From Comamonas sp. BIGb0124 (GTDB lineage Bacteria > Pseudomonadota > Gammaproteobacteria > Burkholderiales > Burkholderiaceae_C), in assembly GCF_003752175.1 (NCBI RefSeq), contig NZ_RJVF01000016.1:62001-126000 (forward strand): DNA of 64,000 nucleotides, given 5' to 3'. This document shows, in pieces, positions 28,055 through 48,647 of the stretch. Below the pieces are notes generated by a model. It did not search any database and was not told where the DNA came from. It saw only the letters and a program-made list of their open reading frames with translations. The position numbers and the translations under genes were made by a program. How positions within the stretch are numbered: position 1 is the stretch's first letter; each line of letters starts with the position of its first letter.

Positions 28055-28083
28055 ATACGCCCCTGGCAGCGGGCGCGCGCGCC

Positions 28084-28722
28084 ATGCGCGATGATGCCGG
28101 CATGCCCGCCTGTACCTTTTCAGATCCGATACGCGACGAACTCGACTCCCCCGGCCGCCCGGCCGCCGGCGTGGTCGGGGTGTTGCTGGCCGCCGGTCAC
28201 GCACGGCGCTTCGGCCGCGACAAGCGGCAGTTGCCATGGCGCGGCGGCCCGACGTTGATGGAGGCGGCGTTGCGGCCGCTGCTGTCGGTCTGCGAACGGG
28301 TGGTGGTGGTGCTGCCGCCCGGCGATGCCTGGGGCCTGCTGTGCAGCCGGGCCCATGGCGCCGGCGTGGCCTGGTCCTTTGCACGCGGCCAGGGGCTGGC
28401 CGCTTCGCTCTCGTCGGCCCTGCCGCAGGTGGGCGCGGCGCCGGCCATGCTGGTGGCGCTGGCCGACATGGGCGATGTGCAGGTGCAGACGCTGGAGCGG
28501 CTCGTGCAGGCCTGGCGCCGCCATCCCGGGCAGCTGGTGCTGCCGGTGCATGCGGGGCAGCCGGGCAATCCGCGCCTCGTTCCCCAGGTCTTCTACGAGC
28601 GGCTGGTGGGCCTCAGCGGAGACGACGGGGTTCGCCGTGCGCTGGACTGGTCGGCGGCGTTGCGGGTGCCGGTCGACGATGCCGGTGTGCTGCGGGATGT
28701 GGATGTGCCGGCGGACGCCTGA
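28084..28722 (+). CDS. MocA-like molybdenum cofactor cytidylyltransferase
   Basis: A 212-residue nucleotidyltransferase of the MobA-like NTP-transferase family. It has the LLAAGHARRFGRDKRQLPW nucleotide-binding motif at about 34-52 and the metal-binding ALADMGDVQ segment. In MocA-type proteins this domain adds CMP to molybdopterin to make MCD, the form used by xanthine-oxidase-family enzymes. A second ATG at 28102 would remove six residues and is equally possible. It directly follows xdhC (29 bp) and is convergent with the next ABC operon; the 60 bp between them is almost entirely G+C with several short inverted repeats. Confidence 0.82.
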   Translation: MRDDAGMPACTFSDPIRDELDSPGRPAAGVVGVLLAAGHARRFGRDKRQLPWRGGPTLMEAALRPLLSVCERVVVVLPPGDAWGLLCSRAHGAGVAWSFARGQGLAASLSSALPQVGAAPAMLVALADMGDVQVQTLERLVQAWRRHPGQLVLPVHAGQPGNPRLVPQVFYERLVGLSGDDGVRRALDWSAALRVPVDDAGVLRDVDVPADA

Positions 28723-28783: not shown

Positions 28784-29515
28784 TCAGCGATGCGAGAGGC
28801 GCTTGCTGGCCTGCATCAGCGAGCCGTTGCAGGTGAGTGCGAAGACCGTGAGGAACAGCGCCACGGCCATGATGGTGCGGATGTCGCCGAGGTTCATCGC
28901 ATTGGTCAGCACATAACCCAGTCCCCGTTGCGAGGCGAACATCTCGCCGATGAGCACGCCCAGCAGCGTCAGCGAGAACGCCAGGCGCAGGCCCGAGACC
29001 ACATCGGGCAGGATGGCGGGGAGCACCACGTGAAGAATCGACTGCCGCGTGGTCAGCCGCATCGACTGCGAGGCACGCAGAAGGACCGGGCGCATCTGCC
29101 GGATGGCGCTCATGGTGAAGACCATGATGGGGATGATGCCGTGCATCACGCCGAAGGCCACCTTGGCCGACAGGCCCAGTCCGAAGGCCAGCAGGACCAG
29201 CGGGTAGAGGGTGACCTTGGGCACGGCGTAGAGATTGAGCAGGATGGGCTCGGTGACGTCGCGCGCCAGCCGGTTGACGCCGAGGATCAGGCCGAGGACC
29301 AGGCCGCCGGCCAGCCCGATGAGCAGGGCGTAGGCCAGTGCGCGGCCGGTTTCCGCGACGTGCAGCCAGAACTCGGTGGTCTGCAGCATCTCCGCCAGGG
29401 CCAGCACGGTTTCCCAGGGCGAGGCGAGCGAGCCGCCGCCGACCATCCAGTGCAGGATTTGCCAGGCCACGACGAGCGCGGCGGCGAGTCCGCCATATTG
29501 CGTGAGGTTTTTCAT
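28784..29515 (-). CDS. ABC permease, nitrate/sulfonate/taurine type (second permease)
   Basis: A 243-residue permease with about six helices and the BPD_transp_1 EAA loop (SQSMRLTTRQSILHVVLPAILPDVVSGLRL). It resembles SsuC/TauC/ThiX-type inner-membrane subunits. It is the last gene of the operon running leftwards: binding protein, ATPase, permease and this permease. Having two non-identical permeases suggests a heterodimeric channel, seen in some aromatic or pyrimidine-precursor importers. The start is 21 bp after the preceding gene. Confidence 0.87.
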   Translation of the reverse strand: MKNLTQYGGLAAALVVAWQILHWMVGGGSLASPWETVLALAEMLQTTEFWLHVAETGRALAYALLIGLAGGLVLGLILGVNRLARDVTEPILLNLYAVPKVTLYPLVLLAFGLGLSAKVAFGVMHGIIPIMVFTMSAIRQMRPVLLRASQSMRLTTRQSILHVVLPAILPDVVSGLRLAFSLTLLGVLIGEMFASQRGLGYVLTNAMNLGDIRTIMAVALFLTVFALTCNGSLMQASKRLSHR

Positions 29516-29536
29516 GCGTTTCCTTCGGGCGGGGAC

Positions 29537-30356
29537 TCAGCGGTGCAGGCGGGACTGCAGCCGCCGGTCGAGGGTGTTGAGCACCATGTTGACGAGCGTG
29601 ACCGTGGTCAGCACGAGGAACATCAGCGCATACATGTCGTCGTTCTCGAAGTTGTTGTAGGCGTAGCCGATGGCATAACCGATGCCCGATCCGGAGAGGA
29701 TGAATTCCGAGGCGATGACGCCGATGAAGGCGTAGGCCACCACCAGCTTGACGCCGGTGAACAGGTGGGGCAGGGCGGCCGGCAGCTTGACGCGCACGGC
29801 CGATTGCCAGGGCGACAGCCGCAGCACCCGCGCCGTCTTGTGCAGGGCGCGCGGGATGCGGTCGAGCCCGTTGAGCGTGGCGGTGATCATGGTGACGATC
29901 GCCAGCAGCACGGCAATGGCGATGATGGGCGCGGCCCCCACGCCCAGCACCACGATGAAGACCGGGTAGAAGATGAAGGTGGGTACGGCGTAGTAGCTGG
30001 CCAGCAGCGGCTCGAGCGCGGCACGCAGCGGCGGCACCGTGTGCACGAACAGGCCGCAGGTGAAGCCCAGCAGCACGGCCAGCACGGTGGCGACGCCGAT
30101 GTTGAAGAGGCTGGAGGCGATGTCGTGGTCGAACTTGCCGTTCTGCAGCAGCGTCCAGGCGTGGCCGGCCATGGCCGAGGGAGGGATCATGGTCGTGGCC
30201 TGGATCACGCCGATGCGGCAGAGCAGTTCGATGCCTGCGATCAGCAGGGCGACCACGATCACGCGCAGCACGTTGTCCTGGAGCAGCCAGCCCGACAGGC
30301 TGCGGCTGCGGCGGCCGGGACTGCGGCGGGCCGTATCGCGGGGCGGGGCGGCGGTC

Positions 30357-30367
<11 letters not shown>
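29537..30367 (-). CDS. ABC permease, nitrate/sulfonate/taurine type (first permease)
   Basis: A 276-residue permease with an N-terminal polar, arginine-rich leader of about 25 residues, then six helices and an EAA loop (TARVLRLSPWQSAVRVKLPAALPHLFTGVKL). It belongs to the SsuC/TauC family and should pair with the adjacent permease. Its start overlaps the end of the ATPase gene by 11 bp, indicating translational coupling. Substrate unknown. Confidence 0.87.
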
Positions 30368-31226
<859 letters not shown>

Positions 31227-31248
31227 GAGGCGTTACTCGGCGCTGGCG

Positions 31249-32244
31249 TTAGAGCTTGCTCTTGGCTTTGACCGAGGGCGGCAACAGGCTGCTGTCGACC
31301 AGCTTGGTCCAGTCCACGCTGTCCTTGAGTTCGCCGATGAGCTTGAGGCCGTCGGTCATGCGGTCGAGTTCGACCTGGTCGAATTCGCCTTCGCTCCACA
31401 TGCGCGACTTGACCATGTTGTCGACGGCTTCGCGTGCGACTTCGGGCGTGAGCTTGAAGCTGGTTTCCAGCAGCTTGGCCGCGGCGGCCGGGTCGCGATA
31501 GGTGGCGCGCACGCCGGCCTGGCGGCCTTCGATGATGGCGCGCAGCTTTTCCGGGTGCTCCTTGGCGAAGGCCCGGGTGGTGATGCCGACCGAGGTGGTC
31601 ATGGGCTGCAGCACGGCGCCGGCGTTGTAGACGGTGCGGTACTTGTCCTTGCGCACGATGGACAGGGGCTCGATCAGCACGGCGCCGGCCACGGCGTTCT
31701 GTTCCAGCATGGTCAGGCCGTTGACGTAGCCGCCCGAAGCGACACGCTGAACCTGCGCGGCGTCGACGCCCTTTTCCTTGAGCACCATCAGCAGCAGCAT
31801 TTCGGAGACGCCCTTGGGCGAGGTGATGGCCACCTTCTTGCCGGCCAGATCGGCGACGTCCTTGACGGGCGAATCCGGCAGGGTGACCAGGGTGGCTTCG
31901 GCCACGCTGCGGGTGCCGGTGTTGACGATGACGACATCGAGGCCCTGGCGTTGCGCGGCCAGCGCGGCCGAGACGGCGACTTCGCCGTACGGCAGCTTGC
32001 TGGCGAGGATGTTGCGCACGGTGGTGCCGCCGCCGCCGGAGGTGAGGATGCCGGTGATGTCGATGCCGGCCTTCTTGAACAGGCCCTGGTCCATCGCCAC
32101 GGCGTAGGGCAGGCCGTAAAGGCTGCTGCCCCACTGGGTGACGGAGATTTCCTCGGCGTTGGCGGCGGAGGGAGCGGCCAGGGCGGCGGACATCACGAAG
32201 GACGCGCACAGGGCGGCCCGGAAGCGCTTGACGAAGGTCTGCAT
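31249..32244 (-). CDS. ABC substrate-binding protein, NMT1/SsuA type
   Basis: A 331-residue periplasmic binding protein of the NMT1/SsuA/TauA family. The signal peptide is clear (basic MQTFVKRFR, hydrophobic core, cleavage after ANA at residue 30), and the mature protein begins EEISVTQWGSSLYGLPYAVA. The family binds sulfonates, nitrate, pyrimidine precursors or aromatic acids. ATG 32244 follows a good GAGGAAA ribosome-binding site. It is the first gene of a four-gene importer operon. A TAGATATCGA element about 120 bp upstream recurs at the FRG gene promoter, which suggests control by the neighbouring MarR protein. Confidence 0.87.
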   Translation of the reverse strand: MQTFVKRFRAALCASFVMSAALAAPSAANAEEISVTQWGSSLYGLPYAVAMDQGLFKKAGIDITGILTSGGGGTTVRNILASKLPYGEVAVSAALAAQRQGLDVVIVNTGTRSVAEATLVTLPDSPVKDVADLAGKKVAITSPKGVSEMLLLMVLKEKGVDAAQVQRVASGGYVNGLTMLEQNAVAGAVLIEPLSIVRKDKYRTVYNAGAVLQPMTTSVGITTRAFAKEHPEKLRAIIEGRQAGVRATYRDPAAAAKLLETSFKLTPEVAREAVDNMVKSRMWSEGEFDQVELDRMTDGLKLIGELKDSVDWTKLVDSSLLPPSVKAKSKL

Positions 32245-32363
32245 GGTTTCCTCGAAACGAAGTGGAAGACAGGTTCCTGTGCCTCCACGCATGCGCCGGC
32301 GTGTGTTCCGATGCAGCGTGTACAGGCGAGTACCGGGGCTGCATGCAAGCCATGTGCCAACAT

Positions 32364-32373
32364 TAGATATCGA
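32364..32373. promoter_or_regulatory. GATATC operator-like element upstream of the NMT1-type ABC operon
   Basis: TAGATATCGA, identical to 33321-33330 in front of the FRG gene. In both places CGAAGATTGT occurs at or just beyond it. A good candidate binding site of the MarR protein encoded at 32628-33206. Confidence 0.45.
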
Positions 32374-32549
32374 TTGAAAAAACGAAGATTGTCGTTTTGT
32401 CGTCAATCCAATCAATAACTTAGATGTCTTATATTATTTTCGAGATGCCTTGAGGGTCGGGATCTTCGAGGTGGACCGGGGTCGGAAAGGTCGGTAGGCC
32501 GCCCGATTGCGGTGTCTTGTGGTGCATGCGCCGCGCTTGTGCGTGCTTT

Positions 32550-32627: not shown

Positions 32628-33206
32628 TCAGTTGGCTGCTGTCATCAGGCGGCCGAGCTCCTGGGTGGAGGGCATGCGCTGGCCGAGCTCGCCGGAGGCC
32701 TGCTCGTCGCGGGACAGGTTGTAGGCCATGGCGATGAGCACCTTGCGGGTGGTCTCGATCTCGGCCTCGGTGATGCCGGCCATGCTGACGCTGTTGACCT
32801 GTTCGGCCAGGGGGACCAGCTTCTTCTTGAGGGCGCGGCCTTGCTTGGTGAGGAAAACGTGGACCTTCTTGTTGTCGCCGGGCAAGTGGGTGCGTTCGAC
32901 GTAACCCAGGCCTTCGAGCGACTTGACCGCCGTGAAGGTGGTGGGCTCGGTGACGCCGGCCCGTTCGGCCAGGGCGCGCTGGGACAGGCCGTCCTGATCC
33001 CACAGCACGCGCAGAATCGTCCAGTGGCCGTAACTCACGGTATGCGGAACGAGCCGGATCTGCAGGCTGCGGATGAAGGCGCGGGCAGCGTCCTTGACCA
33101 GGTGGGCAACACGTTCGTGGGCCAGCTGGTCGACGGCGGCGGCCAGGGCCTCGGCCTGCTCCGCAGGGTTCGAGAGCCGGGTCTGTTTCTTGGATGGACG
33201 GGCCAT
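32628..33206 (-). CDS. MarR-family transcriptional regulator (second)
   Basis: A 192-residue MarR protein with a lysine/arginine-rich N-terminus and a winged helix: SQRALAERAGVTEPTTFTAVKSLE and wing LPGDNKKVHVFLTKQG. It differs clearly from the NicR-type protein at 21,316. It lies between the NMT1-type ABC operon (same strand, downstream) and a divergent FRG gene. GATATC-centred elements in front of all three genes suggest local control by this protein. MarR regulators of this kind usually respond to aromatic acids; the ligand is unknown. Confidence 0.85.
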   Translation of the reverse strand: MARPSKKQTRLSNPAEQAEALAAAVDQLAHERVAHLVKDAARAFIRSLQIRLVPHTVSYGHWTILRVLWDQDGLSQRALAERAGVTEPTTFTAVKSLEGLGYVERTHLPGDNKKVHVFLTKQGRALKKKLVPLAEQVNSVSMAGITEAEIETTRKVLIAMAYNLSRDEQASGELGQRMPSTQELGRLMTAAN

Positions 33207-34304: not shown

Positions 34305-35138
34305 ATGTACGACCGCTACGCAACTGAAAAACTGATCGACCTGTGGCTGACCGAAGACATCGGCGCCTGCGACCTCACGGTGCAGACCATGATCGAGCCC
34401 ACCGAGCAAGGTCATTTCGTGATGAATGCACGCGAGAGCCTGATCGTCGCCGGCATCGACATCGCCGCACGGGTGTTCCAGAAATACGACCCGACGCTGG
34501 CGGTCGAGGTCCATGTGGCGGACGGCGAGCGTGTGGGCAAGGGCAAGGTGCTGATGACGGTCAAGGGCAGCGCACGCAGCGTGCTGACGGCCGAACGCAC
34601 GGCGCTCAACCTCATGCAGCGCCTGAGCGGCATTGCCAACGAGACGGCACGCTATGTGCAGGCCATCGAAGGCACACGCGCCCAGCTGATCGACAGCCGC
34701 AAGACCACGCCCGGCCTGCGCATGCTCGAGAAGCACGCCGTGCTGTGCGGCGGCGGCCTCAACCACCGCCTGGCGCTGGACAACGGCGTGATGGTCAAGG
34801 ACAACCACATCGCCGTCTGCGGCAGCATTGCCGAGGCCGTCGCCCGCGTGCGCCGCAAGCTGCCGGTGCTGACCAAGCTGGAAGTGGAGTGCGATCGCGT
34901 CGACCAGGTGCGCGAGGCGCTGGCGGCCGGCGTGGACGTCATCATGCTCGACAACATGTCGCTGCCCGACATGGCCGAGTCCGTGGCGATCGTGGCCGGA
35001 CGCACCAAGGTGGAAGCTTCGGGCGGCATCCGCCTGGAAACCATCCGTCCCATCGCCGAGACCGGCGTGGACTACATCTCGACCAGCAAGATCACCCAGT
35101 CGGCCCCGGCCGTGGACATCGGCCTGGACGAAGCATGA
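34305..35138 (+). CDS. nadC: Nicotinate-nucleotide pyrophosphorylase (quinolinate phosphoribosyltransferase)
   Basis: A 277-residue NadC. Signatures are [56 protein letters not shown] and [11 protein letters not shown], covering the basic quinolinate/PRPP pocket and the acidic metal site. It converts quinolinate and PRPP to NaMN, CO2 and pyrophosphate in de novo NAD synthesis. No nadA or nadB is nearby. Instead nadC overlaps by 4 bp (ATGA) a gene predicted to make PRPP from ribose 1,5-bisphosphate, so its co-substrate could be supplied locally. Whether it is the organism's only nadC or a specialised copy cannot be told from this window. Confidence 0.9.
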
Positions 35139-37291
35139 GCACCGAGCGGTCCGCCGCCGCAGGGACCTTCTTTTTTGTCGTGGGCCCCAGCGGTGCGGGC
35201 AAGGACACGCTGATCGACGGCGCGCGCCAGGCCCTGGCCGGCCGGCCCTATGTGTTTGCACGCCGGGTCATCACCCGGCCGGCCGGCGCGGCGGGCGAGG
35301 ACCACGAGGCCGAAACGGCCGAAGGTTTCGAGAGGCGCCGGGCCGCGGGCGATTTCCTGATGACCTGGCGTGCCCATGGCCTGGATTACGGCCTGCCGGC
35401 GAGCTTGCTGGGCGTGCTGGCTGCGGGCTCGCACGTGGTGGCCAACGGGTCGCGTGCCATGGTGGCGACGCTTGCCGAACGCCTGCCCGGCCTGGTGGTG
35501 GTCGAGGTCTGCGCGCCGCCCGAAGTGCTGGCCCGGCGCATTGCCGGACGCGGGCGCGAGACGGCCCAGGAGGTACTGGCCCGTCTGGCCCGCCAGGTCG
35601 ATCCCCTGCCGACCGGCCTGCTGCGCCAGCGGGTGGTCAACGACGGCGATCCGGCGCAAGGCATCGCCCGTTTTCTGCAGGTGCTGAGCCAGCCCGTGAC
35701 GAACCGCGTGGTTCGCCGGCTGGGTCTGGACACGGGGGGTGAAAGCCTGGTGCTGGCGCCTTGCGCGAGCTGGCCGGCCGCCAGCCGCCTGCGTCTGCAA
35801 GGGCCGGCCGGTGCGCTGGCCGATGTGCGGGTGCTGGCCCGGATGCATCCGCACGAGCCGGTTCGCATGCGGGCGGCCTTGCAGGCGAATGTGCAGGCAC
35901 GGGTGGCGACCTGCGTGTCGGCAGCGCCGCAGGATGTACTCGCCGAGGTCGCTCCTGCGCTGCAGACGGGCGAGCTGGGCTTGCCTTCCGGCCTGATGCA
36001 GCGTCTGGGGCTGGACGAGGGGCAGACGGTGCGTGTGCTGCCCACGCTGGAGGCCAGCAGCCGGACCTGGCTGGGGCACAAGCTACGCGGCGGGCGGCTG
36101 GCGGCATCCGAATACGAGGCGGTGTTTCTCGATGCGCTGGATGGCCGCTACACCGAAGCCGAGCTCACGGCGTTTCTGGTGGCCACGACGCGGGCGCTGG
36201 ATGCCGACGAGACCCTGGCGTTGGCGCAGGCCCGCACCCGGCTGGCCAAGCCCATGGTGTGGGACGAGGCCATGGTGGTGGACAAGCACTCGCTGGGGGG
36301 CGTGCCGGGCAGCCGCATCACGCTCGTCGTGGTGCCGATCGTGGCGGCGCATGGGCTGGCCATGCCCAAGGCGTCGTCGCGTGCCATTACGTCGGCAGCC
36401 GGCACGGCCGATGCGATGGCCGTGCTGGCCAACGTGGTTTTGTCGCCGCAGGACGTGCGGCGCTGCGTGCGCGAGGCACGGGCCTGCATCGCCTGGAACG
36501 GCCGCATCAGCCATTCGGTGATCGACGACGTGATGAACCGCATCACCCGCCCGATGGGGCTGGAGACCGGGGCCTGGTCGGTCGCCTCCATCCTGTCGAA
36601 GAAGGTGACGGCGGGGGTGACCCATCTGCTGGTGGATGTGCCTTACGGGCCGCACACCAAACAAGCCGACGAAACCCAGGCGCAGGCGCTCTGCACCTTG
36701 TTCGAACAGGTGGGCCGGGGGCTGGGACTGACGGTGCGTGCGCTGGCCACCGACGGCACGCGGCCGATCGGCCGAGGGATCGGTCCGGCGCTGGAAGTGC
36801 GCGACGTGCAGCAGGTGTTGGCGCGCGATCCGGCCGCACCGCACGATCTGCGGGCCAAGGCCTTGCGTTTTGCGGCGCATGTCCTGGCTTGGGATCCGGC
36901 CGTCGGCTCGGTCGAGCGCGGGCTGGAGGTGGCCCGCCATCTGTTGGACAGCGGCGCGGCGCAGACGGCCCTGGCGCGCATCGTGGCGGCCCAGGGGCCG
37001 GCCGCAGCGGTGGCGCCGGCGTCGCATTCGGCCGAGATCGATGCCGGGTGTTCGGGCCGTGTCGTCGAGATCGACGGCTGGACCGTCGCCGGCCTGGCGC
37101 GCTCGGCCGGTGCGCCGCAGCACCCGGGCGCGGGCATCGACCTGTTGTGCGGCGTGGGCGACACGGTGCAGGCCGGACAGGCCCTGTACCGCGTTCACGC
37201 GGCCAGCGAGACGCTGCTGCAGTCGGTGCTGGCCCAGGCGGCTGCGGTGCCAGGCGGCGGTGTTCGCGTGGCCGGCGGCGACATGGCGTGA
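35135..37291 (+). CDS. Fusion: PhnN ribose-1,5-bisphosphate phosphokinase + type-2 thymidine/AMP phosphorylase
   Basis: One 718-residue open frame with two enzymes. Residues 1 to about 186 are PhnN: P-loop GPSGAGKDT at 17-25, RRVITRP, and a guanylate-kinase-like fold; PhnN phosphorylates ribose 1,5-bisphosphate to PRPP. From about residue 187 ([10 protein letters not shown]) begins a complete type-2 thymidine phosphorylase-like protein with its own N-terminal domain, the phosphate/nucleoside motif VDKHSLGG (Lys384, His385, Ser386), [13 protein letters not shown] near 413 and ILSKKVTAG with Lys489-Lys490. Archaeal relatives are AMP/NMP phosphorylases yielding a base and ribose 1,5-bisphosphate, the substrate of PhnN. 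The fusion therefore joins consecutive steps. The start overlaps the nadC stop (ATGA). No other phosphonate (phn) genes are present. The function is inferred; substrate preference is unknown. Confidence 0.8.
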
Positions 37292-37443: not shown

Positions 37444-40400
37444 TCAGGGCGCATGCCCCTGCCGTACCCGGGCCACGGCGGCGGCGCTGTCCGTCCAGGC
37501 CGGTTGGTCCGGTGCGAAGCGGGCCCGCAGGTAACCGAGCAGGTCGGCGATCTGGCTGTCGTCGAGGCTGTCCTGGAAACCGGGCATGTAGCCCAGTTCG
37601 CCGTTGGCCGGGTCCTGGATGCCGTGCAGGATGACCTGGACGAGGTTGTCGGGCTGCGCGCTGTGGACGTTGGTGTTGAGCGCCAGCGAAGGCTTGACGC
37701 CGAACAGCGTCGGCCCCTGGCCCGCTTCGTGGCAGGCGGCGCAGGCGTTCTGGTAGAGGCGTTCGCCGTTGACGTGGGCGGCGTAGACGGGTGTCGCAGT
37801 CGTGCCGGCCGCCGGTGTCCGAGCGGCCGCCGCCGTGTCCGCGGGCAGCGCCGCCAGGGCCTGGGGCGCAAGGGTGGCCGGGGCTGTTGGCGTTGGCGTT
37901 GGCGTTGGCGTCCGGGCGTCTGCCGAAGCCGTCTGTGCAGGCGACTCGGGCGACAGGGCCATCAGGTAGGTCGAGATGGCGCGCACATCCTGCTCCGGCA
38001 GCTCGGCCAGGCCATGGATCACGGGAGCCATGGGGCCGGCCGCGACGCCGTGGCGGGTCGAGAAACCGGTCCGCATGTACTGGTACAGTTCCTCCGCGGT
38101 CCACGGCCGGGGTCCTTCGGCCAGCCGGTTGAGCGCGGGCGCGTTCCAGCCTTCGGCGCTGCCGCCGGCCAGGAAGTTGGCCGTGCCGGTCTTTTCGCCG
38201 CCCAGGCTGTTGCGTGGCGTGTGACAGGCGCCGCAGTGGCCCGCGCCCTGCACCAGGTAGGCGCCGCGGTTCCATTCGAGGCTCTGCGTGGGATCGGGCC
38301 GATAGGGCGTGTTGTCGTGGAACAGCATGTTCCAGCCGGCCAGCGTGGGGCGCAGGTTGTAGGGGAAGGCCAGTTCGGTCCTGGGCGGCTCGGCGCGCAC
38401 GGCGGGCTGCGACATCAGGTAGCCGTAGAGCGCCTGCATGTCGGCATCGCTCATCTTGGCGAAGGCCGTGTAGGGAAAGGCGGGGTAGAGCTGCCGGCCG
38501 TCCTGGTGCACGCCTTCGCGCATGGCCCGCTCGAAAGCGCTGTACGACCAGCGGCCGATGCCGGTGTCGTTGTCGGGCGTGATGTTGGTGCTGTAGATGG
38601 TGCCGAAGGGGGTGTCCAGCCCCAGGCCGCCCGCGTTGGCCTCGCCACCCGCCGCAGTGTGGCAGACGATGCAGTCGCCCGCGGCGGCCACTAGCCGGCC
38701 CCGCTCGATGGCGGCTGCGGAATAGAGCGAGACGTCGGGTCCGGCCGTGGGAGCGATGGGCGCCTTGACCGGCCAGGCCATGGCGGCCAGGCCCGCGGCG
38801 GCGGTTGCCCCGGCGGCCAGCCAGCCCCAGGTCTTCCTGAACCAGGCGGCAGACGAGGCACCCCGGCCGCGCACGGCCGGCGGCGCTTGCAGGGCCAGGC
38901 GCAACTGTTCGGCATCGAAGGGGGCCTGGCGCAGCCGCACGCCGGTGGCGTCGTAAATGGCATTGGCCACGGCGGCGGCGGCGGGCAGCGTGAGCACGCC
39001 GTCGAGCGCCAGGCGGCCCTGATCGACCGCCGGCCGGCTGGCGTCGGGCTCGGCGGTGGGCACGGGCAAGTCGGACGGGGTGACTGCCGGGGCGATGGCG
39101 GTCGAGGCCTGCGCGCTGCCGCCTGCGGTTTCGGGCGGCAGTGCGCCCCAGTCGTCGAAGCGCGCGGGCGCCGCCAGCAACTGGCGGGCCTGTGCCAGCA
39201 GGTGGGCGTCGTCGATCGGTGCGCTGCGTGCGGGTGACAGCGACTGGCTGTCGTGGCCGACGACGACCCGCGTCACATCGATCTGGCCGCTGGCCGGGTC
39301 GATGGCGACTTCGGCCACCCACGCGCTCCAGGCCGTGCCGCCGGCTTCGGGCGCCTGCGCATAGGCGAAGCCCCGGCCGCGCAGTCGGGTGTCGGGCCGG
39401 GTCTGCGTCGACAGCGCCTGCGCGTTGCCGGCGACGCCGCCGGCCGGCTGCCAGTCGGCGCGTGCGGCGACATCGCGGACCAGTCGGCGGGCCGGCTCGC
39501 TGGCCAGGCGCTCCAGGCGGTAGGCCACCGGGTCCTGGCCATGGCGGCGGCTGTACTCGTCGACCAGGCTTTCCTGGGCAAACACCTGTGCGGCCAGCAG
39601 GTGGGTGCCGTCCGCGTGGTTGAGCGGGGCCGCACCGGCGGCTGCCGTGCGGCGGATGGCCACCAGCTCGGCAGGAGCCGCTTCGGCCTGCGGCGTGGCC
39701 TGGGCCGGCTGGCTCAGCAGGCGGGCCAGGCTGGGCCGCACGGCCCACGGCGCTTCGGCCTGCAGGACCGGTGGGCTCGCGCTGGCCGGTGCGGTGCCGG
39801 TGTCGGCGGATTCGGCCTCGCCGTCGTCAGCCGAACCGGGTGGAGCCGACGGTGCGCCCGGCGTGCCGTCGGCGCCGTCCGTGAAGGGCGGGCAGACCGG
39901 CACGGCCAGCTCGAGCCGCACGGGCGGGCGGCTGCCTGCATGCAGGGCAACACGCACCGGACGACCGGTCGCGCGCGACAGCAGGGCCGCGTCGGCGGCG
40001 GCATCCACGGCCGAGAGGACGTCCGCCGCCGCCGTGCCGGCCGGCTCGGTGGACACCACCACGATCTGGTGTTCGTCCCACTGGAGCAGGCGGGCGAGCT
40101 CGCGGCGGCATGGGTCGAGGTGTTCGGGGGCGAGCGGCAGCCACACGGTGGCGGCGCGCTGCAGGCACCAGGCGACGGCCTCGCCCGAGACCGCTGCGCC
40201 GGCCGTACCGGGCGACCAGATGTAGCGCGTGTCGTCTGCGGCGGTGGCCGGGGTGGGGGGGCGCCGGGCCTGCGCTGCCTGCTGCAGCGTGGGGTCGGGC
40301 CTGTGCCAGCGGAGCTGCAGGCTGTCGGCGGCCTGGCGGGCCAGGATGGGCGAGACGGCGGCCAGGCCGACGTAGTGCTGGATGCGCACCGCAGCGATCA

Positions 40401-40581
40401 CGCCGGGCAGCGCCTGGGCGTGGGCCAGATCCATCGATTCGAGCAGATCGCCGCGGTAGCGGCTGCCGTCCCACGCCAGGGTCGGCGGCCGCAGCACGGC
40501 GCCGTGCAGGACCTCGCGCGGCAGCGTGGGCGGGGGGGAGGGCGGGGCCTTGGGGCTGGCCTGCGGATCCGTGAGGTCCAT
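37444..40581 (-). CDS. nicB: Nicotinate dehydrogenase cytochrome subunit with degenerate molybdopterin-type domain (NicB, tri-haem)
   Basis: A 1045-residue protein. Residues about 24-560 align by eye with the hammerhead and second Mo-binding region of the catalytic subunit at 46,317, but key residues are gone: the GAGE with catalytic Glu is replaced by LDGVLTLP just before the shared AxANAxYDATG segment. A membrane helix follows (about 568-588), then three cytochrome c domains with CIVCH (about 635), CGACH (about 782) and CAACH (about 946). Domains two and three are joined by a TPTPTPTPT linker. Electrons from NicA's 2Fe-2S clusters are expected to pass through the haems to the respiratory chain. 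In Pseudomonas NicB the Mo and cytochrome parts are one chain; here they are separate. It is the last gene of nicC-nicA-nicB. Confidence 0.82.
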   Translation of the reverse strand: MDLTDPQASPKAPPSPPPTLPREVLHGAVLRPPTLAWDGSRYRGDLLESMDLAHAQALPGVIAAVRIQHYVGLAAVSPILARQAADSLQLRWHRPDPTLQQAAQARRPPTPATAADDTRYIWSPGTAGAAVSGEAVAWCLQRAATVWLPLAPEHLDPCRRELARLLQWDEHQIVVVSTEPAGTAAADVLSAVDAAADAALLSRATGRPVRVALHAGSRPPVRLELAVPVCPPFTDGADGTPGAPSAPPGSADDGEAESADTGTAPASASPPVLQAEAPWAVRPSLARLLSQPAQATPQAEAAPAELVAIRRTAAAGAAPLNHADGTHLLAAQVFAQESLVDEYSRRHGQDPVAYRLERLASEPARRLVRDVAARADWQPAGGVAGNAQALSTQTRPDTRLRGRGFAYAQAPEAGGTAWSAWVAEVAIDPASGQIDVTRVVVGHDSQSLSPARSAPIDDAHLLAQARQLLAAPARFDDWGALPPETAGGSAQASTAIAPAVTPSDLPVPTAEPDASRPAVDQGRLALDGVLTLPAAAAVANAIYDATGVRLRQAPFDAEQLRLALQAPPAVRGRGASSAAWFRKTWGWLAAGATAAAGLAAMAWPVKAPIAPTAGPDVSLYSAAAIERGRLVAAAGDCIVCHTAAGGEANAGGLGLDTPFGTIYSTNITPDNDTGIGRWSYSAFERAMREGVHQDGRQLYPAFPYTAFAKMSDADMQALYGYLMSQPAVRAEPPRTELAFPYNLRPTLAGWNMLFHDNTPYRPDPTQSLEWNRGAYLVQGAGHCGACHTPRNSLGGEKTGTANFLAGGSAEGWNAPALNRLAEGPRPWTAEELYQYMRTGFSTRHGVAAGPMAPVIHGLAELPEQDVRAISTYLMALSPESPAQTASADARTPTPTPTPTAPATLAPQALAALPADTAAAARTPAAGTTATPVYAAHVNGERLYQNACAACHEAGQGPTLFGVKPSLALNTNVHSAQPDNLVQVILHGIQDPANGELGYMPGFQDSLDDSQIADLLGYLRARFAPDQPAWTDSAAAVARVRQGHAP
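37886..37909. repeat. Four tandem GTTGGC hexamers encoding a Thr-Pro linker
   Basis: In-frame hexanucleotide repeat on the minus strand encoding alternating Pro-Thr between the second and third haem domains of the cytochrome subunit. Copy-number change would alter linker length without a frameshift. Confidence 0.85.
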
Positions 40582-40604: not shown

Positions 40605-41183
40605 TCAATCGGCGCCGGGCGGCATATCGTCCGGAGTGGCCAATGGGCCCAATCGGGCCGATGCGGCTGCATGGAGATCCACGGCCCGGTGGGCGGCCCG
40701 CAGGATCTCGATATGGGTGCCGCAGCGGCACAGGTTGTGGTGCAGTTCCTGGCGGATCTCGTGGTCGGTGGGCTGCGGCTTGCGGCGCAGCAGGGCCTCG
40801 GTGGTCATGATCATGCCGTTGAGGCAGTAACCGCACTGCGCGGCCTGGCAGTCGATGAAGGCCTGCTGCGTGGGGCCGGGCCGGCCGGCGCAGGCCAGTC
40901 CTTCGAGGGTGGTCACGCGGCGTCCGGCCACGCCCTTGACGGGGATCACGCACGAGCGGGCGGCCACACCGTCGACCAGCACGGTGCAGGCCCCGCATTC
41001 ACCCAGACCGCAACCGTACTTGGGGCCGTTGAGTTCGAGGTCGTTGCGCAGCACGTAGAGCAGCGGCGTGCCCGGAGCCGCCGCCACCCGGCAGGCCTGG
41101 CCGTTGACCTCGAGGGTCAGCGGCTCGGACGTGCCGGTCGGGGCGGGCGCGGGGTGGACGTGCGGGGATGGACTGCTGCTCAT
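40605..41183 (-). CDS. nicA: Nicotinate dehydrogenase small subunit, 2Fe-2S ferredoxin type
   Basis: A 192-residue iron-sulfur subunit of the xanthine oxidase family. The plant-ferredoxin-like cluster ligands are in YGCGLGECGACTVLVDG with a fourth Cys in RSCVIP; the second, all-helical cluster domain has CQAAQCGYC and LCRCGTH. It carries electrons from the Mo centre during hydroxylation of nicotinate to 6-hydroxynicotinate. Both ends are longer than usual by about 20 residues of Pro/Ala-rich sequence. It lies 131 bp after nicC and 23 bp before the cytochrome subunit on the same strand. Confidence 0.93.
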   Translation of the reverse strand: MSSSPSPHVHPAPAPTGTSEPLTLEVNGQACRVAAAPGTPLLYVLRNDLELNGPKYGCGLGECGACTVLVDGVAARSCVIPVKGVAGRRVTTLEGLACAGRPGPTQQAFIDCQAAQCGYCLNGMIMTTEALLRRKPQPTDHEIRQELHHNLCRCGTHIEILRAAHRAVDLHAAASARLGPLATPDDMPPGAD

Positions 41184-41314: not shown

Positions 41315-42625
<1,311 letters not shown>

Positions 42626-42754: not shown

Positions 42755-42772
42755 CAAGTGTGTACGCCTAAA
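42754..42772. promoter_or_regulatory. NicR-type operator-like palindrome, site d (nicE side)
   Basis: TCAAGTGT and ACGCCTAAA around GT. In reverse orientation it matches the same pattern as sites a and c. It is 57 bp upstream of the nicE start. Confidence 0.58.
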
Positions 42773-42828
42773 TGTGGGCTCTTTTCAAAGCGCATCCAGA
42801 CCGCTGCGCCACCAACGGGAAAACAACC

Positions 42829-43596
42829 ATGAGCAAGACCTACCGCATCGGCCAGATCGTGCCGAGCTCCAACACCACGATGGAAACCGAAGTGCCGGCC
42901 ATGCTGCTGGCCCACCAGCAGATCCGCCCGCACGACCGCTTCACCTTCCATTCCAGCCGCATGCGCATGAAGACCGTGCAGAAGGACGAACTGGCTGCGA
43001 TGGATGCCGAAAGCGACCGCTGCGCGCTCGAGCTCAGCGATGCGCAGGTCGACGTGCTGGGTTATGCCTGCCTGGTGGCCATCATGGCCATGGGGCACGG
43101 TTACCACCGGGTCTCGCAGGCCCGCCTGACCGAACGCACGGCCAGCAACGGCGCCACGGCGCCGGTGATCACCAGCGCGGGCGCGCTGGTCGATGCGCTG
43201 AAGGTGATGGGTGCCAAGAAGATCGCGCTGGTGGCGCCCTACATGCTGCCGCTCACGCAACTGGTGCGGGACTACATCGCCAACGAAGGCTTCGAGATCG
43301 TCGACTGGCGCGCCCTCGAGATCCCCGACAACCTCGATGTCGGCCGCCACGACCCGGCCAGGCTGCCCGGCATCGTCGCCGGCATGAACGTGGCCGATGC
43401 CGACGTCATCGTGCTGTCGGCCTGCGTGCAGATGCCTTCGCTGCCGGCGGTCGCGCAGGTCGAGGCCCAGACCGGCAAGCCGGTGCTGACGGCGGCCATC
43501 GCCACCACATACGCGATCCTGAAGGAGCTCAAGCTCGATCCGGTGGTGCCGGGCGCGGGGGCCTTGCTGTCGGGCGCCTATCCCTACGCCGACTGA
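42829..43596 (+). CDS. nicE: Maleate cis-trans isomerase
   Basis: A 255-residue Asp/Glu racemase-superfamily isomerase converting maleate to fumarate, the last step of nicotinate degradation. The two catalytic cysteines are at residues 81 (GYACLVAIM) and 199 (SACVQMPS); their spacing of 118 is that expected for maleate isomerase. The N-terminal substrate loop PSSNTTMETE is present. ATG 42829 is chosen because it directly precedes the first strand (TYRIGQIVPSSN); an upstream ATG at 42772 overlaps operator-like site d. First gene of the rightward nic operon. Confidence 0.94.
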   Translation: MSKTYRIGQIVPSSNTTMETEVPAMLLAHQQIRPHDRFTFHSSRMRMKTVQKDELAAMDAESDRCALELSDAQVDVLGYACLVAIMAMGHGYHRVSQARLTERTASNGATAPVITSAGALVDALKVMGAKKIALVAPYMLPLTQLVRDYIANEGFEIVDWRALEIPDNLDVGRHDPARLPGIVAGMNVADADVIVLSACVQMPSLPAVAQVEAQTGKPVLTAAIATTYAILKELKLDPVVPGAGALLSGAYPYAD

Positions 43597-43648
43597 CGAA
43601 GCGCCCGGCGCGTCGTCGTCCTGTCACGGTCCTTGCTTGGAGTTCTGC

Positions 43649-44473
43649 ATGAGCAATTTTCTTTACGGCGCCAACGTGCATGCCAACGGCATCCGCCAGC
43701 ACGTGCTGCGTTACGGCGGCAGCGACGGCGAGCGCGCCAGGCGCGATCCCGTCATCCTGATTCCCGGCATCACCAGCCCGGCGGTGACCTGGGGCTTCGT
43801 GGCCGAACGCTTCGGCCGCCACGTCGACACCTATGTGCTGGACGTGCGGGGCCGCGGCCTGTCGTCGTCCGGCCCGGGGCTGGACTACAGCCTGGACGCC
43901 CAGGCCGCCGACGTCGTCGCCCTGGCGCAGGCGCTGGGCCTGAAACGCTATACGCTGGTCGGCCACTCGATGGGCGGCCGCATCGCGGTGCGTGCGGCGC
44001 GCAGCCAGCCGGCCGGCCTGTCGCAGCTGATCATCGTCGATCCGCCGGTCTCCGGGCCCGGGCGGCGGGCCTATCCGGCCAAGCTGCCCTGGTACGTGGA
44101 TTCCATCCGGCAGGCGACGCGGGGCATGTCGGCCGAAGACATGAAGGCCTTCTGCCCGACCTGGACCGAGGCGCAGCGCCAGTTGCGTGCCCAGTGGCTG
44201 CACACCTGCCACGAGCCCGCCATCGTGCAGAGCTTCGAGGACTTCGGCACCGACGACATCCATGCCGATCTGCCGCATATCAAGCATCCGCTGCGCCTGA
44301 TCACCGCCGAACGCGGCGACGTGGTGCGCGACGACGACGTGGCCGAGTGGCAGCAACTGGCTCCGCAGACCCAGCACCATCGCGTGCCTGCGGCCGGCCA
44401 CATGATTCCCTGGGACAACGAGGAAGGTTTCTACGCCGCCTTCGACGACGTCCTGGGCCACCGGCTGGACTGA
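43649..44473 (+). CDS. nicD: N-formylmaleamate deformylase
   Basis: A 274-residue alpha/beta hydrolase that releases formate from N-formylmaleamate to give maleamate. The nucleophile elbow GHSMGG has Ser107, with Asp131 (IIVDPP) and His251 (AGHMIPW) as partners. This triad is shifted by exactly six residues from Pseudomonas putida NicD (Ser101, Asp125, His245, recalled from the literature), which strongly supports the assignment. It lies 52 bp after nicE. Confidence 0.95.
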   Translation: MSNFLYGANVHANGIRQHVLRYGGSDGERARRDPVILIPGITSPAVTWGFVAERFGRHVDTYVLDVRGRGLSSSGPGLDYSLDAQAADVVALAQALGLKRYTLVGHSMGGRIAVRAARSQPAGLSQLIIVDPPVSGPGRRAYPAKLPWYVDSIRQATRGMSAEDMKAFCPTWTEAQRQLRAQWLHTCHEPAIVQSFEDFGTDDIHADLPHIKHPLRLITAERGDVVRDDDVAEWQQLAPQTQHHRVPAAGHMIPWDNEEGFYAAFDDVLGHRLD

Positions 44474-44537: not shown

Positions 44538-45611
44538 ATGTCCGTGAGCGACATCGATCTGATGAAGGCCTGGAAACAGGTTCTGACTCTGTCCAAGCTG
44601 CAGGCCGGCCAGACCGTGACCGTGCTGACCAGCGCCGACACCCACCCCCAGACCCTGCGCTGCGCCATTGCCGCAGCCAGCGACATGGGGGCTCTGGTCA
44701 ACCGGCTCGATCTGCCGCCCGTCAATGCCGAGAAGGCCCTCAGCCGCGATTCGCTGGCCTACCTGGGCACGACGCCGCTGACGGGCAACCACGCGGCGAT
44801 CGCCGCGCTCAAGGCCAGCGACCTGGTGCTCGACCTGATGACGCTGCTGTTCTCGCCCGAGCAGCACGAGATCCTGTCGGCCGGCACCAAGATCCTGCTG
44901 GCCGTCGAGCCGCCCGAGGTGCTGTGCCGCCTGGTGCCCACCGAAGGCGACCGCGTCCGCGTGAGCGCCGCTTCGCAGCGCATCGAGGCCGCACGCGAGA
45001 TGCACGTGACCTCGGCCGCCGGCACCGATCTGCGCTGTGCCCTGGGCGAGTTCCCGGCGATCCGCGAGTACGGCTATGTCGACGAGCCGGGACGCTGGGA
45101 TCACTGGCCCAGCGGTTTCGTGCTGACCTGGCCCAACGAAGGGCAGAGCAACGGCGTGGTGGTGCTCGACCGCGGCGACATCCTGCTGCCCATGAAGGAC
45201 TACGTCACCGAGCCCATCCGCCTGGACATCCGCGAAGGCTACGTGCGCGCCATCGAGGGCGGCCTGCAGGCCGATCTGCTCAAGGAATACATGGCCACCT
45301 TCGAGGACCCCGAGGCCTATGCGGTCTCGCACATCGGCTGGGGCCTGCAGCCGCGCGCACAATGGTCGATGCTGGGTCACTACAACAAGGAAACCCATAT
45401 CGGCATGGATGCCCGGGCCTTCGAAGGCAACTTCCTGTGGTCCATGGGCCCCAACAACGAAGCCGGCGGTAGCCGCACCACGGCCTGCCACATCGACATT
45501 CCCATGCGCCGCTGCAGCGTGGCGCTCGACGGCACCCCCACCGTGATCGACGGCGTGGTGCAGGACGACATCGGCCTGGCCTACGCGGCGGCCAGAAAAG
45601 GACTGCTGTGA
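44538..45611 (+). CDS. nicX: 2,5-dihydroxypyridine 5,6-dioxygenase
   Basis: A 357-residue extradiol-type, Fe(II)-dependent ring-cleaving dioxygenase that opens 2,5-dihydroxypyridine to N-formylmaleamate. It belongs to the M29-aminopeptidase-like fold. The three iron ligands reported for P. putida NicX (His265, His318, Asp320) are all present at the same numbers: His265 in SHIGWG, and His318 and Asp320 in CHIDIPM. Its stop codon overlaps the nicF start (GTGA). Confidence 0.96.
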   Translation: MSVSDIDLMKAWKQVLTLSKLQAGQTVTVLTSADTHPQTLRCAIAAASDMGALVNRLDLPPVNAEKALSRDSLAYLGTTPLTGNHAAIAALKASDLVLDLMTLLFSPEQHEILSAGTKILLAVEPPEVLCRLVPTEGDRVRVSAASQRIEAAREMHVTSAAGTDLRCALGEFPAIREYGYVDEPGRWDHWPSGFVLTWPNEGQSNGVVVLDRGDILLPMKDYVTEPIRLDIREGYVRAIEGGLQADLLKEYMATFEDPEAYAVSHIGWGLQPRAQWSMLGHYNKETHIGMDARAFEGNFLWSMGPNNEAGGSRTTACHIDIPMRRCSVALDGTPTVIDGVVQDDIGLAYAAARKGLL

Positions 45612-46270
45612 GCAACGACACCCAGACCCTCCCCATCGCCGGCGTCGAAGGCGACGTCTCGGCCTACGCACGGCAGGGCTTCGGCACGCCGCTGCCGCTC
45701 AAGGCGCCGTTCGGCCTGCTCGTCATCGACTTCGTCAACGGCTTTGCCGATCCGGCGGTGTTCGGCGGCGGCAACATTCCCGAGGCCATCGCGCAGACCA
45801 CGCACCTGCTGGCGCATGCGCGAGCCCAGGGCTGGCCGGTGGCGCACAGCCGCATCGTGTTCTCGGACGACGATGCCGACAGCAACATCTTCTGTCTCAA
45901 GGTGCCGGGCATGCTCACGCTCAAGGAAGACAGCCCGGCCAGCGCCATCGTGCCCGAGCTCGCGCCGGCGGCCGGCGAGTACGTGGTGCGCAAGAGCACG
46001 CCCTCGGCGTTCTTCGGCACCATGCTGGCACCCTGGCTGGCCCAGCGCGGCGTGCAGACGCTGCTGGTGGCCGGCTGCGTGACCAGCGGCTGCGTGCGCG
46101 CCAGCGTGGTCGATGCCATGCAGGCGGGTTTCCGCCCGCTGGTGGTGGCCGATTGCGTGGGCGACCGCGCGCTGGGCCCGCACCATGCCAATCTCTTCGA
46201 CATGGCGCAGAAGTACGCGGCCGTGATGCCCCTGGCGCAGGCGCTGGCCAGCGTCGAGGCACTGGGCTGA
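45608..46270 (+). CDS. nicF: Maleamate amidohydrolase
   Basis: A 220-residue cysteine hydrolase of the isochorismatase/nicotinamidase fold that releases ammonia from maleamate to form maleate. The triad is Asp41 (VIDFVNGF), Lys129 (VRKSTPSAF) and Cys162 in GCVTSGCVRAS, followed by SVVDAM. The GTG start at 45608 overlaps the nicX stop, showing translational coupling. The catalytic Mo subunit of nicotinate dehydrogenase follows after 46 bp. Confidence 0.94.
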   Translation: MSNDTQTLPIAGVEGDVSAYARQGFGTPLPLKAPFGLLVIDFVNGFADPAVFGGGNIPEAIAQTTHLLAHARAQGWPVAHSRIVFSDDDADSNIFCLKVPGMLTLKEDSPASAIVPELAPAAGEYVVRKSTPSAFFGTMLAPWLAQRGVQTLLVAGCVTSGCVRASVVDAMQAGFRPLVVADCVGDRALGPHHANLFDMAQKYAAVMPLAQALASVEALG

Positions 46271-46316: not shown

Positions 46317-48647
46317 ATGACCCCGCTACCCCAGCCCCGCCTCCAGCGTCAGGATCTGCTCAGCCGCCAGGGCGCGCTTCTCATCGTGCGCGACCCGGTG
46401 GCGGGTGCCCGGCCGGCGCCGGGCCAGCCGGGTGCGGCATCCGACTATGTGCCGGGCACGCCCGACATCTTTGTCGCCGTGCTCGACGAGGGGGCCGATC
46501 GGCCGGCCCGCGTGATGGCCTTCAACGGCCACGTCGACCTCGGGACCGGCATCCGCACCGCCCTGGCCCAGATCGTGGCCGAGGAGCTGGAGGTGGCCCT
46601 GTCACAGGTCGAGATGGTGCTCGGCCATACCGAGGGCGCGCCCAACCAGGGGCCCACCATCGCGAGTGCGACCATCCAGATCTCGGCCGTGCCGCTGCGG
46701 CGGGCGGCGGCGCAGGCGCGCGAGCACCTGCTGGTGCTGGCGGCATCGGTCTTCGGTGTGCCGGCCGCGCAGGTGCGCGCGGCCGATGGCCATGTGATCT
46801 GCGATGTCGCAAGCGACGGCGGCGGCGACGGTGCCGCGCCGCGGCGCCTTTCTTACGCCGCGCTGCTGTCGGGCCGCCAGGATGTCTTCCGTCTGGCCGA
46901 GAGCGTCAAGCTCAAGCCCGCCGGCGAGTACCGCATCGTGGGGCGCGGTGCGGCGCGGGTCGATATTCCGGCCAAGGCCACCGGCGCGCTCACCTTCGTG
47001 CACGACGTGCGGGTGCCCGGCATGCGCCACGGCCGTGTGCTGCGCCCGCCTTACCACGGGCGCGATGCCGGGCCGTTCATCGGCCGCAGCCTGCTGTCGG
47101 TCGATGCGGCTTCGGTGCAGCATCTGCCGGGCCATGTGGCCGTGGTGGTCGACGGGGATTTCGTCGGTGTGGTCGCCGATCGCGAAGAGCAGGCGGCGGC
47201 GGCCGCGCGTGTGTTGCGGGTGCAGTGGCGCGAGCCGCCGCCCGCGCCGGACCTCTCCGATCTGGCGGCGGCCCTGCGCGGCCATCCGTCCGTCCTGCGC
47301 CCGCTGCTGGCCCAGGGCGATGCCGACGCCGCCCTGGCCGATGCCGCCGTGGCTCTGCAGCGGACCTATGTCTGGCCCTATCAGATGCACGCCTCGATCG
47401 GGCCGTCCTGCGCGGTAGCCGAATGGCGCGGCGAGCAATTGACGGTGTGGTCCGGCACCCAGAACCCGCACATGCTGCGCATCGACCTCGACCGCTTGCT
47501 GGGCGCGGGTGAACAGAACATCGAGATCGTCCGTCTGGAAGCCGCCGGCTGCTACGGACGCAACTGCGCCGACGACGTCTGCGCCGATGCCGCGCTGCTG
47601 GCCCGCGCCGTGGGTTCGCCCGTGCGTGTGCAGCTCACGCGCGAGCAGGAGCATGTCTGGGAGCCCAAGGGCACGGCCCAGCTCATGGAGGTGCAGGGGG
47701 CGCTCGACGAACGCGGCAACCTGTTGGCCTACGATTTTGCGACCCGCTACCCGTCCAACGACGCGCCGCTGCTGGCCCTGCTGCTGACGGGCAAGGTGTC
47801 GGCCGAGCCCCGCACCCTGGAAATGGGCGACCGCACCGCCGTGCCGCCCTACCGGTATCCGCACCTGCGGGTGGTCTGCCACGACATGCCGCCGCTGGTG
47901 CGGTCGTCCTGGCTGCGCGGCGTCTCGGCCTTGCCGAATTCGTTCGCGCACGATTGCCTGCTCGACGAACTGGCCTTCGAGGCCGGCGCCGATCCGGTCG
48001 AGTTCCGCTTGCGCCACCTCGACGACCGTCGCGCCGCCGATCTGGTCGGCGCCGTGGCGCAGCGCGCCGCCTGGCAAGCGGGTGACCGGGGCAGCCGCGG
48101 CGCGCCCGGTCCGGACGGCCTGCTGCGGGGGCGGGGCGTGGCCTACGCGCGGTATGTGCACAGCCGTTTTCCCGGCTTCGGCGCCGCCTGGGCCGCCTGG
48201 GTGGTCGATCTCCAGGTCGAGCCGGCCAGCGGCCGCATCCGCGTGAACCGGATCGTGGTGGCGCAGGACACCGGCATGATGGTCAACCCCGACGGCGTGC
48301 GTCACCAGATCCACGGCAATGTCATCCAGTCGCTGTCGCGCGCGTTGCTCGAGCGGGTCGACTTCAATGCCCAGGGCGTGGCCAGCCGGGAGTGGGGCGC
48401 CTACCCCATCATCGGTTTTGCCGATCTGCCGGAGATCGACGTCCTGCTCATGGACCGGCAGGACGAGCCCCCCATGGGCGCGGGCGAATCGGCCTCGGTG
48501 CCGGGTGCGGCGGCCATCGCCAATGCCCTGTTCGACGCCACCGGCTGCCGTTTCCGCGAGCCGCCGTTCACGCCGCAGCGCATCCGGCAGGCCCTGGCGT
48601 GGCGTGGCGTGCACACGGTGGACGACACGGAAATACAGATTTCGTAG
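46317..48647 (+). CDS. nicB: Nicotinate dehydrogenase catalytic molybdopterin subunit (NicB Mo part, no cytochromes)
   Basis: A 776-residue xanthine-oxidase-family Mo subunit. The N-terminal Mo-binding region (FNGHVDLGTGIRTALAQIV; GPTIASATIQIS) is followed by the a/b hammerhead (about 220-310) and the second Mo-binding region, with the catalytic Glu724 in MGAGESASVPG. It should hydroxylate nicotinate at C6 using water-derived oxygen. Unlike Pseudomonas NicB it ends without cytochrome domains or a membrane helix, so electrons must leave through NicA to the separate tri-haem protein at 37,444. It is the last gene of nicE-D-X-F-B. No signal peptide is seen, so its active site is probably cytoplasmic. 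Confidence 0.88.
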   Translation: MTPLPQPRLQRQDLLSRQGALLIVRDPVAGARPAPGQPGAASDYVPGTPDIFVAVLDEGADRPARVMAFNGHVDLGTGIRTALAQIVAEELEVALSQVEMVLGHTEGAPNQGPTIASATIQISAVPLRRAAAQAREHLLVLAASVFGVPAAQVRAADGHVICDVASDGGGDGAAPRRLSYAALLSGRQDVFRLAESVKLKPAGEYRIVGRGAARVDIPAKATGALTFVHDVRVPGMRHGRVLRPPYHGRDAGPFIGRSLLSVDAASVQHLPGHVAVVVDGDFVGVVADREEQAAAAARVLRVQWREPPPAPDLSDLAAALRGHPSVLRPLLAQGDADAALADAAVALQRTYVWPYQMHASIGPSCAVAEWRGEQLTVWSGTQNPHMLRIDLDRLLGAGEQNIEIVRLEAAGCYGRNCADDVCADAALLARAVGSPVRVQLTREQEHVWEPKGTAQLMEVQGALDERGNLLAYDFATRYPSNDAPLLALLLTGKVSAEPRTLEMGDRTAVPPYRYPHLRVVCHDMPPLVRSSWLRGVSALPNSFAHDCLLDELAFEAGADPVEFRLRHLDDRRAADLVGAVAQRAAWQAGDRGSRGAPGPDGLLRGRGVAYARYVHSRFPGFGAAWAAWVVDLQVEPASGRIRVNRIVVAQDTGMMVNPDGVRHQIHGNVIQSLSRALLERVDFNAQGVASREWGAYPIIGFADLPEIDVLLMDRQDEPPMGAGESASVPGAAAIANALFDATGCRFREPPFTPQRIRQALAWRGVHTVDDTEIQIS

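Follow-up and report, generated by a model that had tools for sequence, protein, structure and literature searches.

A protein of 1045 amino acids, P0003, encoded on the minus strand at 37444-40581 of the window (the whole 64,000-nucleotide stretch of Comamonas sp. BIGb0124 DNA that was analysed), is probably the cytochrome and anchor subunit of a tripartite nicotinate dehydrogenase, in which it would be the NicB2-like partner of NicA and a NicB1-like catalytic subunit and would contribute a pseudo-Mo docking domain. Its N-terminal part would be a Mo-hydroxylase fold that was taken over from a fused NicB and has since lost its catalytic Glu along with the pterin-binding motifs and the cofactor loops at its N-terminus. 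The degenerate form is a conserved variant found across many genomes and not a local accident. It belongs to one branch of proteobacteria, where the cytochrome subunit probably takes electrons from nicotinic-acid breakdown.

Three parts can be recognised in P0003: a degenerate Mo-fold domain (residues ~1-575), a weak hydrophobic helix (~578-600), and a tri-haem cytochrome c (~620-1045). The earlier note on this DNA had the coordinates right, to which the minus strand is to be added; the plus-strand reading of 37444-40581 is interrupted by stops. The degenerate Mo-fold part (38857-40581, minus strand) served as the query for searches and alignments. Residues 26-564 of P0003 align with residues 238-760 of P0001, the intact Mo catalytic subunit of the same window, at 30% identity (BLASTP, E 1e-30), far beyond chance, for a homologous region of ~540 residues. 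The Mo-type homology that had been claimed for the first ~560 residues is thereby upheld, with the correction that the first ~237 residues of the NicB Mo domain, including the GHVDLGTG and NQG loops, are missing from P0003. Nor does the protein have what defined a fused NicB, a catalytic Mo half that is complete and carries GHVDLGTG and GCYGRN. Pfam returned only cytochrome c families above cut-off for P0003, and MoCoBD_1 and MoCoBD_2 for P0001; no Mo family was detected in P0003 by Pfam, and NCBIfam gave just short, weak Mo matches near the end of the domain. In the C-terminal half, residues 589-1040 match the cytochrome chain 8gy3_A in two stretches (E 1.7e-95), and three CxxCH haem-c motifs are present in all 29 degenerate-type proteins collected. 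The hydrophobic segment between the two halves is weak, with no window there above 1.6, and is preceded by basic residues.

The genes around P0003 fit a nicotinate pathway, their Nic names being based on family matches and published gene order. Directly upstream on the minus strand lies a NicA-like [2Fe-2S] subunit (40605-41126, its start codon further upstream), followed by a NicC-like FAD monooxygenase (41315-42610, minus strand), assigned by family match and by its place in the published order. On the plus strand follow an arylmalonate-decarboxylase/EutA-type protein (42772-43596), called NicE-like by its place in that order; an alpha/beta hydrolase (43637-44473), NicD-like by family match and position; a NicX-like gene (44538-45611), named by its place in the published order only, with no Pfam or NCBIfam match; an isochorismatase-family protein (45608-46270), NicF-like by family match and position; and, finally, the NicB1-like P0001 itself (46317-48647). 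The order reported for Delftia acidovorans Cs1-4, as given in the accessible part of PMC4572682, is nicB2-nicA-nicC-nicE-nicD-nicX-nicF-nicB1; the gene order of the window fits it, and nicA, nicB1, and nicB2 are all present in the nic cluster.

Several further genes of the window lie beyond P0003. A MarR regulator, possibly NicR/BpsR-like, is encoded at 32628-33206 (minus strand), and an FRG-domain protein (PF08867; 33336-34172, plus strand) sits between it and a 982-aa frame (34343-37291, plus strand) made of PhnN (ribose 1,5-bisphosphokinase, residues 274-450) and, at 531-967, a domain resembling thymidine/AMP phosphorylase; the two activities would suit conversion of AMP to PRPP through phosphorolysis. 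Adjoining the MarR gene, an ABC transporter (28784-32415, minus strand) with two permeases, an ATPase, and an NMT1/SsuA-type binding protein is a candidate for nicotinate uptake; it is the second of its kind, a branched-chain/urea-type transporter being encoded at 23475-26985. Downstream of the latter come genes for an XdhC-family maturation factor and then a MobA-like transferase (27014-28722, plus strand), which likely serve cofactor maturation of Mo hydroxylases.

The loss of catalytic residues was counted, in P0001 numbering, in three sets of sequences: 27 were standalone, 80 fused, and 28 degenerate. The standalone set includes the Tat-type protein of locus L028, which was left out of the count of shared sites given below; the rows L045, L104, and L136 (cut or broken frames), L085 (equal to L068), and the duplicates L043 and L057 were omitted, here as in the counts of near-invariant positions, of mean identity, and of shared sites below, and L079 was retained although partial. 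The active-site Glu, E724, is present in 27/27 standalone and 80/80 fused proteins and in 0/28 degenerate ones, and exactly the same counts apply to C412, G414, H358, and R534. The conserved Gln Q356 occurs in 25/27 standalone, 76/80 fused, and 1/28 degenerate sequences, R415 in 27/27, 80/80, and 1/28; among the degenerate sequences S537 is kept in none and G535 in one. Single motif residues survive in a few degenerate rows, at most five of the 28. The changes reported earlier at the catalytic Glu and at the pocket Gln of P0003 are thus both confirmed, the substrate-pocket role of Q356 being assigned by family analogy, and the ANAxxDATG motif is indeed common to P0003 and P0001. The Q-loop pattern was found in 82/82 fused frames and 0/29 degenerate stop-to-stop frames, L079 and L082 among the latter being without upstream DNA.

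This loss is not spread evenly over the domain. Specifically, of 166 positions that are near-invariant in the standalone and fused proteins, 57 have been kept in the degenerate proteins and 89 lost, the other 20 being mixed; inside the cofactor-motif windows, 3 were kept and 44 lost, versus 54 kept and 45 lost elsewhere (Fisher p 5e-9, for windows that were drawn from family knowledge once the motif alignment had been inspected). Positions D420, F543, A544, P729, A733, N736, and G743 are invariant in all three sets (27/27, 80/80, and 28/28), and the degenerate proteins also have conserved residues of their own, among them W249, G251, Y254, R483, and S485, each at 28/28. The idea that P0003 is still catalytic and binds the cofactor through other residues draws on the Mo-like fold retained in prediction; set against the complete absence of E724, C412, G414, R534, S537, and the Q-loop pattern and the near absence of Q356, R415, and G535, it is hardly credible. 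The earlier description of a non-catalytic Mo-fold domain agrees with all of these counts.

Two other explanations were rejected. A pseudogene or assembly error is ruled out because the orthologues keep the reading frame. A hidden in-frame N-terminal half upstream is ruled out in the window, where the NicA stop at 40605 lies 24 bp ahead of the P0003 ATG at 40581; in the degenerate rows, of which 13 of 29 had their start sites listed, what precedes the start in translation is an out-of-frame reading of NicA, and it was excluded from the protein.

Structure prediction points in the same direction as the alignments. An AlphaFold2 model of the degenerate part, built with 38 sequences, has a mean pLDDT of 72.9 and a pTM of 0.72; 203 of its 615 residues reach pLDDT 90 or more, and two stretches, 229-266 and 472-526, fall below 50. 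The top VIA-align match of this model is the Mo subunit 8gy3_C (Z 20.9, rmsd 6.3, 433 residues aligned), and the next are other Mo hydroxylases, with Z of 14 or more among the 50 matches listed. The intact P0001 reaches Z 31.2 against 8gy3_C, albeit with an rmsd of 15.8 across 637 residues; against 1sij it has Z 30.9, with an rmsd of 4.2 across 509 residues. The degenerate domain is therefore predicted to retain the Mo-hydroxylase core fold.

Although the dead domain changes rapidly, purifying selection acts on it. Its dN/dS lay between 0.17 and 0.42 in ten pairs, with upper limits of at most 0.53, one of the ten (L091/L093) being saturated (dS 2.97); two of 12 pairs, L068/L087 (0.47) and L069/L089 (0.54), were dropped as badly trimmed (650 codons). 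The cytochrome half gave values of 0.07-0.16, and the catalytic gene values of 0.10-0.20 in the nine scorable pairs. Since the Mo part is faster than either in most pairs (in L066/L067, it is about equal to the catalytic gene), much of the dead domain may be loosely constrained. Catalytic residues have been lost and purifying selection has persisted, the two marks by which a pseudoenzyme was to be recognised.

A rather unlikely reading of these rates is that the domain is a relic of the fused ancestor, persisting solely to give the helix and cytochrome a foldable lead at the N-terminus and making no specific contact with a partner. The higher dN/dS would suit such a relic, as would a mean pairwise identity across 25 genomes of 49% versus 77% for the same region of the catalytic gene, the two low-confidence stretches of the model, and the disappearance of the N-terminal part without replacement. 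On the other side stand some 540 codons kept open across 28 distinct sequences, dN/dS below 1, invariant residues peculiar to the group, such as W249, G251, and Y254, and the fact that none of nine sampled genomes with the catalytic type has a cytochrome-only partner of this kind. The suggestion that the domain is retained as if structural is supported by the number of distinct sequences, by purifying selection, and by near-strict co-occurrence with the catalytic subunit.

That co-occurrence was seen at several levels. A search of 399 genomes of the family with the Mo part of P0003 gave matches at E 1e-15 or better in 74; the degenerate type is found in its own genome and six others, the six at 44-47% identity to the query, and most of the remaining matches are open frames of more than 1200 codons, i.e., the fused type, together with a few shorter standalone Mo frames. 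In all seven degenerate-type genomes of the 399, an intact catalytic gene lies nearby (71-74% identity to P0001 in the six others). Conversely, a P0001-type catalytic gene, at least 73% identical to P0001, occurs in eight of the 399 genomes, and one of these, the same-genus genome G001, lacks a degenerate cytochrome partner for it. In that genome the catalytic gene (L030, 9091-11400) is 76% identical to P0001, and its NicX- and NicF-like neighbours are diverged (43% and 38%); NicA has no match within the 20-kb region, the best match elsewhere being 40% identical with an internal stop. A P0001 search of 369 genomes of the class gave three matches, namely the genome itself, G152 (a 54% form), and G784; the last, which belongs to another family, has a standalone catalytic gene and a degenerate partner that is shortened at its N-terminus and shows none of the three motif patterns looked for. 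The degenerate partner is thus present in eight of nine sampled genomes with a P0001-type catalytic gene.

A scan of named genomes extended this picture: among the best 80 of 563 loci, 22 are degenerate and 58 fused. The 22 include ten from Achromobacter, three from Delftia, and two from Paracidovorax, with one each from Bordetella, Comamonas, Acidovorax, Pusillimonas, Mesopusillimonas, an Alcaligenaceae MAG, and a proteobacterial MAG. Of these 22 loci, 19 also contain an intact Mo gene (62-73% identity to P0001), and the remaining three (L079, L082, and L086) end at contig edges. In all, the degenerate form comprises 28 distinct sequences plus the one from G784. The separate intact catalytic subunit proposed in the earlier note is supported.

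The phylogeny of both Mo domains, a check proposed earlier and now run, recovered each type as one clade. The degenerate proteins are held together with support of 100 for the Mo part (99 in the tree with G784) and 99 for the cytochrome half, and the catalytic genes with 99 (81 once G784 is added). The cytochrome half places the degenerate proteins among fused NicB, with support of 82 at the fork joining them to part of the fused set. Likewise, seven sites are shared by the degenerate and fused forms and lost in the catalytic form, with one shared by the degenerate and catalytic forms alone. Descent of the degenerate subunit from a fused Mo-cytochrome NicB is supported by its cytochrome half, and this part of the proposed duplication and split stands. 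The other part, in which the catalytic subunit would be the second half of the same split, fares less well: trees in which the two Mo clades are forced to group are worse by 4.8 to 5.6 log units (p-AU 0.048 and, with G784, 0.032), and p-AU is 0.148 when C_G784 stays outside the forced group. A simple sister pair is weakly disfavoured (p-AU 0.03-0.05), as is origin of the catalytic gene as a direct duplicate of the degenerate subunit, a possible course but not the favoured one; placements of the Mo clades are unsure because the branches are long. Both clades share a broad branching order, in which G784 splits off first and Pusillimonas with its relatives next separates from the others; this suggests joint inheritance.

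A dead copy that is kept under selection beside a working copy from another gene probably holds the complex together instead of doing chemistry. The fold has been kept without its cofactor site, is joined to a helix, and travels with NicB1, so that the simplest role would be the anchoring of NicB1-NicA beside the haems; a docking role of the pseudo-Mo domain is accordingly likely on comparative grounds. NicB1 would hydroxylate nicotinate and pass electrons through the two [2Fe-2S] clusters of NicA, activities assigned from the family. With the hydrophobic helix as its tether, the pseudo-Mo domain would keep NicB1-NicA on the inner side of the membrane and close to the haems, which would hand the electrons on to the respiratory chain. 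We infer the docking, the topology, and the electron route alike. Against the anchor reading point the catalytic gene without a partner in G001 and the weak hydrophobic segment. Furthermore, haem c is attached outside the cytoplasm, in the periplasm, and a simple Tat motif was found in 0/27 NicB1-type rows (one a duplicate) and 1/82 fused rows; Tat-less Mo subunits beside periplasmic haem c would pose a difficulty for an electron path across the membrane, and this counts against the scheme for the whole group.

A further, more speculative proposal builds on the homodimer that is usual in this Mo enzyme family. The dead domain might replace one Mo subunit of that homodimer, giving a lopsided active/pseudo-active pair in which the dead half carries the haems; we regard this as doubtful, but, if true, a pseudo-metalloenzyme would form the base of a complex for respiratory electron transfer. 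That the domain acts in cofactor insertion or substrate sensing, as a chaperone-like pseudo-Mo subunit in place of a static dock, seems quite improbable: the predicted Mo fold has been kept with its cofactor loops emptied, and an XdhC-like factor and a MobA-like transferase are encoded within the window, but the XdhC-like gene may already serve cofactor insertion, and covalent fusion to a cytochrome better fits a permanent subunit. The cytochrome and anchor subunit with a docking domain is the reading carried forward here.

Pseudoenzymes are well described among kinases and proteases. A conserved pseudoenzyme in the electron chain of a molybdenum hydroxylase, covalently fused to the cytochrome, would show a redox enzyme ceding catalysis to a second gene, with the active-site fold kept as a dock. 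For annotation, the nicB2-type products of Achromobacter, Delftia, Paracidovorax, and the relatives found here should not be read as Mo enzymes. No description of a dead Mo domain was found in the literature searched, outside which most subscription papers fall. In the accessible parts of the relevant papers, NicA/NicB1/NicB2 are named in Delftia acidovorans Cs1-4 (PMC4572682) and the hydroxylase is stated to be tripartite in Burkholderia gladioli and Bordetella (PMC10269826); those parts carry the NicB1 and NicB2 names only and make no mention of a dead Mo domain, and NicB is absent from the accessible part of a nicotinate-dehydrogenase review (PMC10331938). The tripartite naming is, therefore, already in print, and the dead Mo domain is a real, conserved variant of a named enzyme that was not described in the literature searched.

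Among known systems, the tripartite enzyme as named in the accessible text has the same subunits as the window and, in Delftia, the same gene order, and the D. acidovorans loci L081 and L082 are of the degenerate type. Again in the accessible text, nicT adjoins nicB2 in Delftia, whereas no nicT was seen beside nicB2 in the window, where the FRG protein and the PhnN fusion lie instead. The closest solved relative of both P0003 and P0001 is the membrane-bound aldehyde dehydrogenase of Gluconobacter oxydans (8gy3), which has its Mo subunit and tri-haem cytochrome on separate chains; unlike P0003, its cytochrome chain, 8gy3_A, is 444 aa and about cytochrome-sized, and for the Mo-like part of P0003 phmmer returned no match among solved structures. 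A three-gene form in G019 (L028, 8755-12435) likewise combines a NicB-family Mo subunit, a separate cytochrome, and a NicA-like gene, but differs in that its Mo subunit bears a Tat-like motif and its partner, at 440 aa, consists of the cytochrome only; it is apparently a periplasmic version. Finally, the fused NicB of the NicAB nicotinate hydroxylase of the Pseudomonas putida KT2440 type has the same order of Mo domain, hydrophobic helix, and tri-haem cytochrome, and the cytochrome half of P0003 nests among such proteins; the difference is that the Mo domain of P0003 is N-truncated, with its cofactor motifs broken and catalysis placed on a separate gene.
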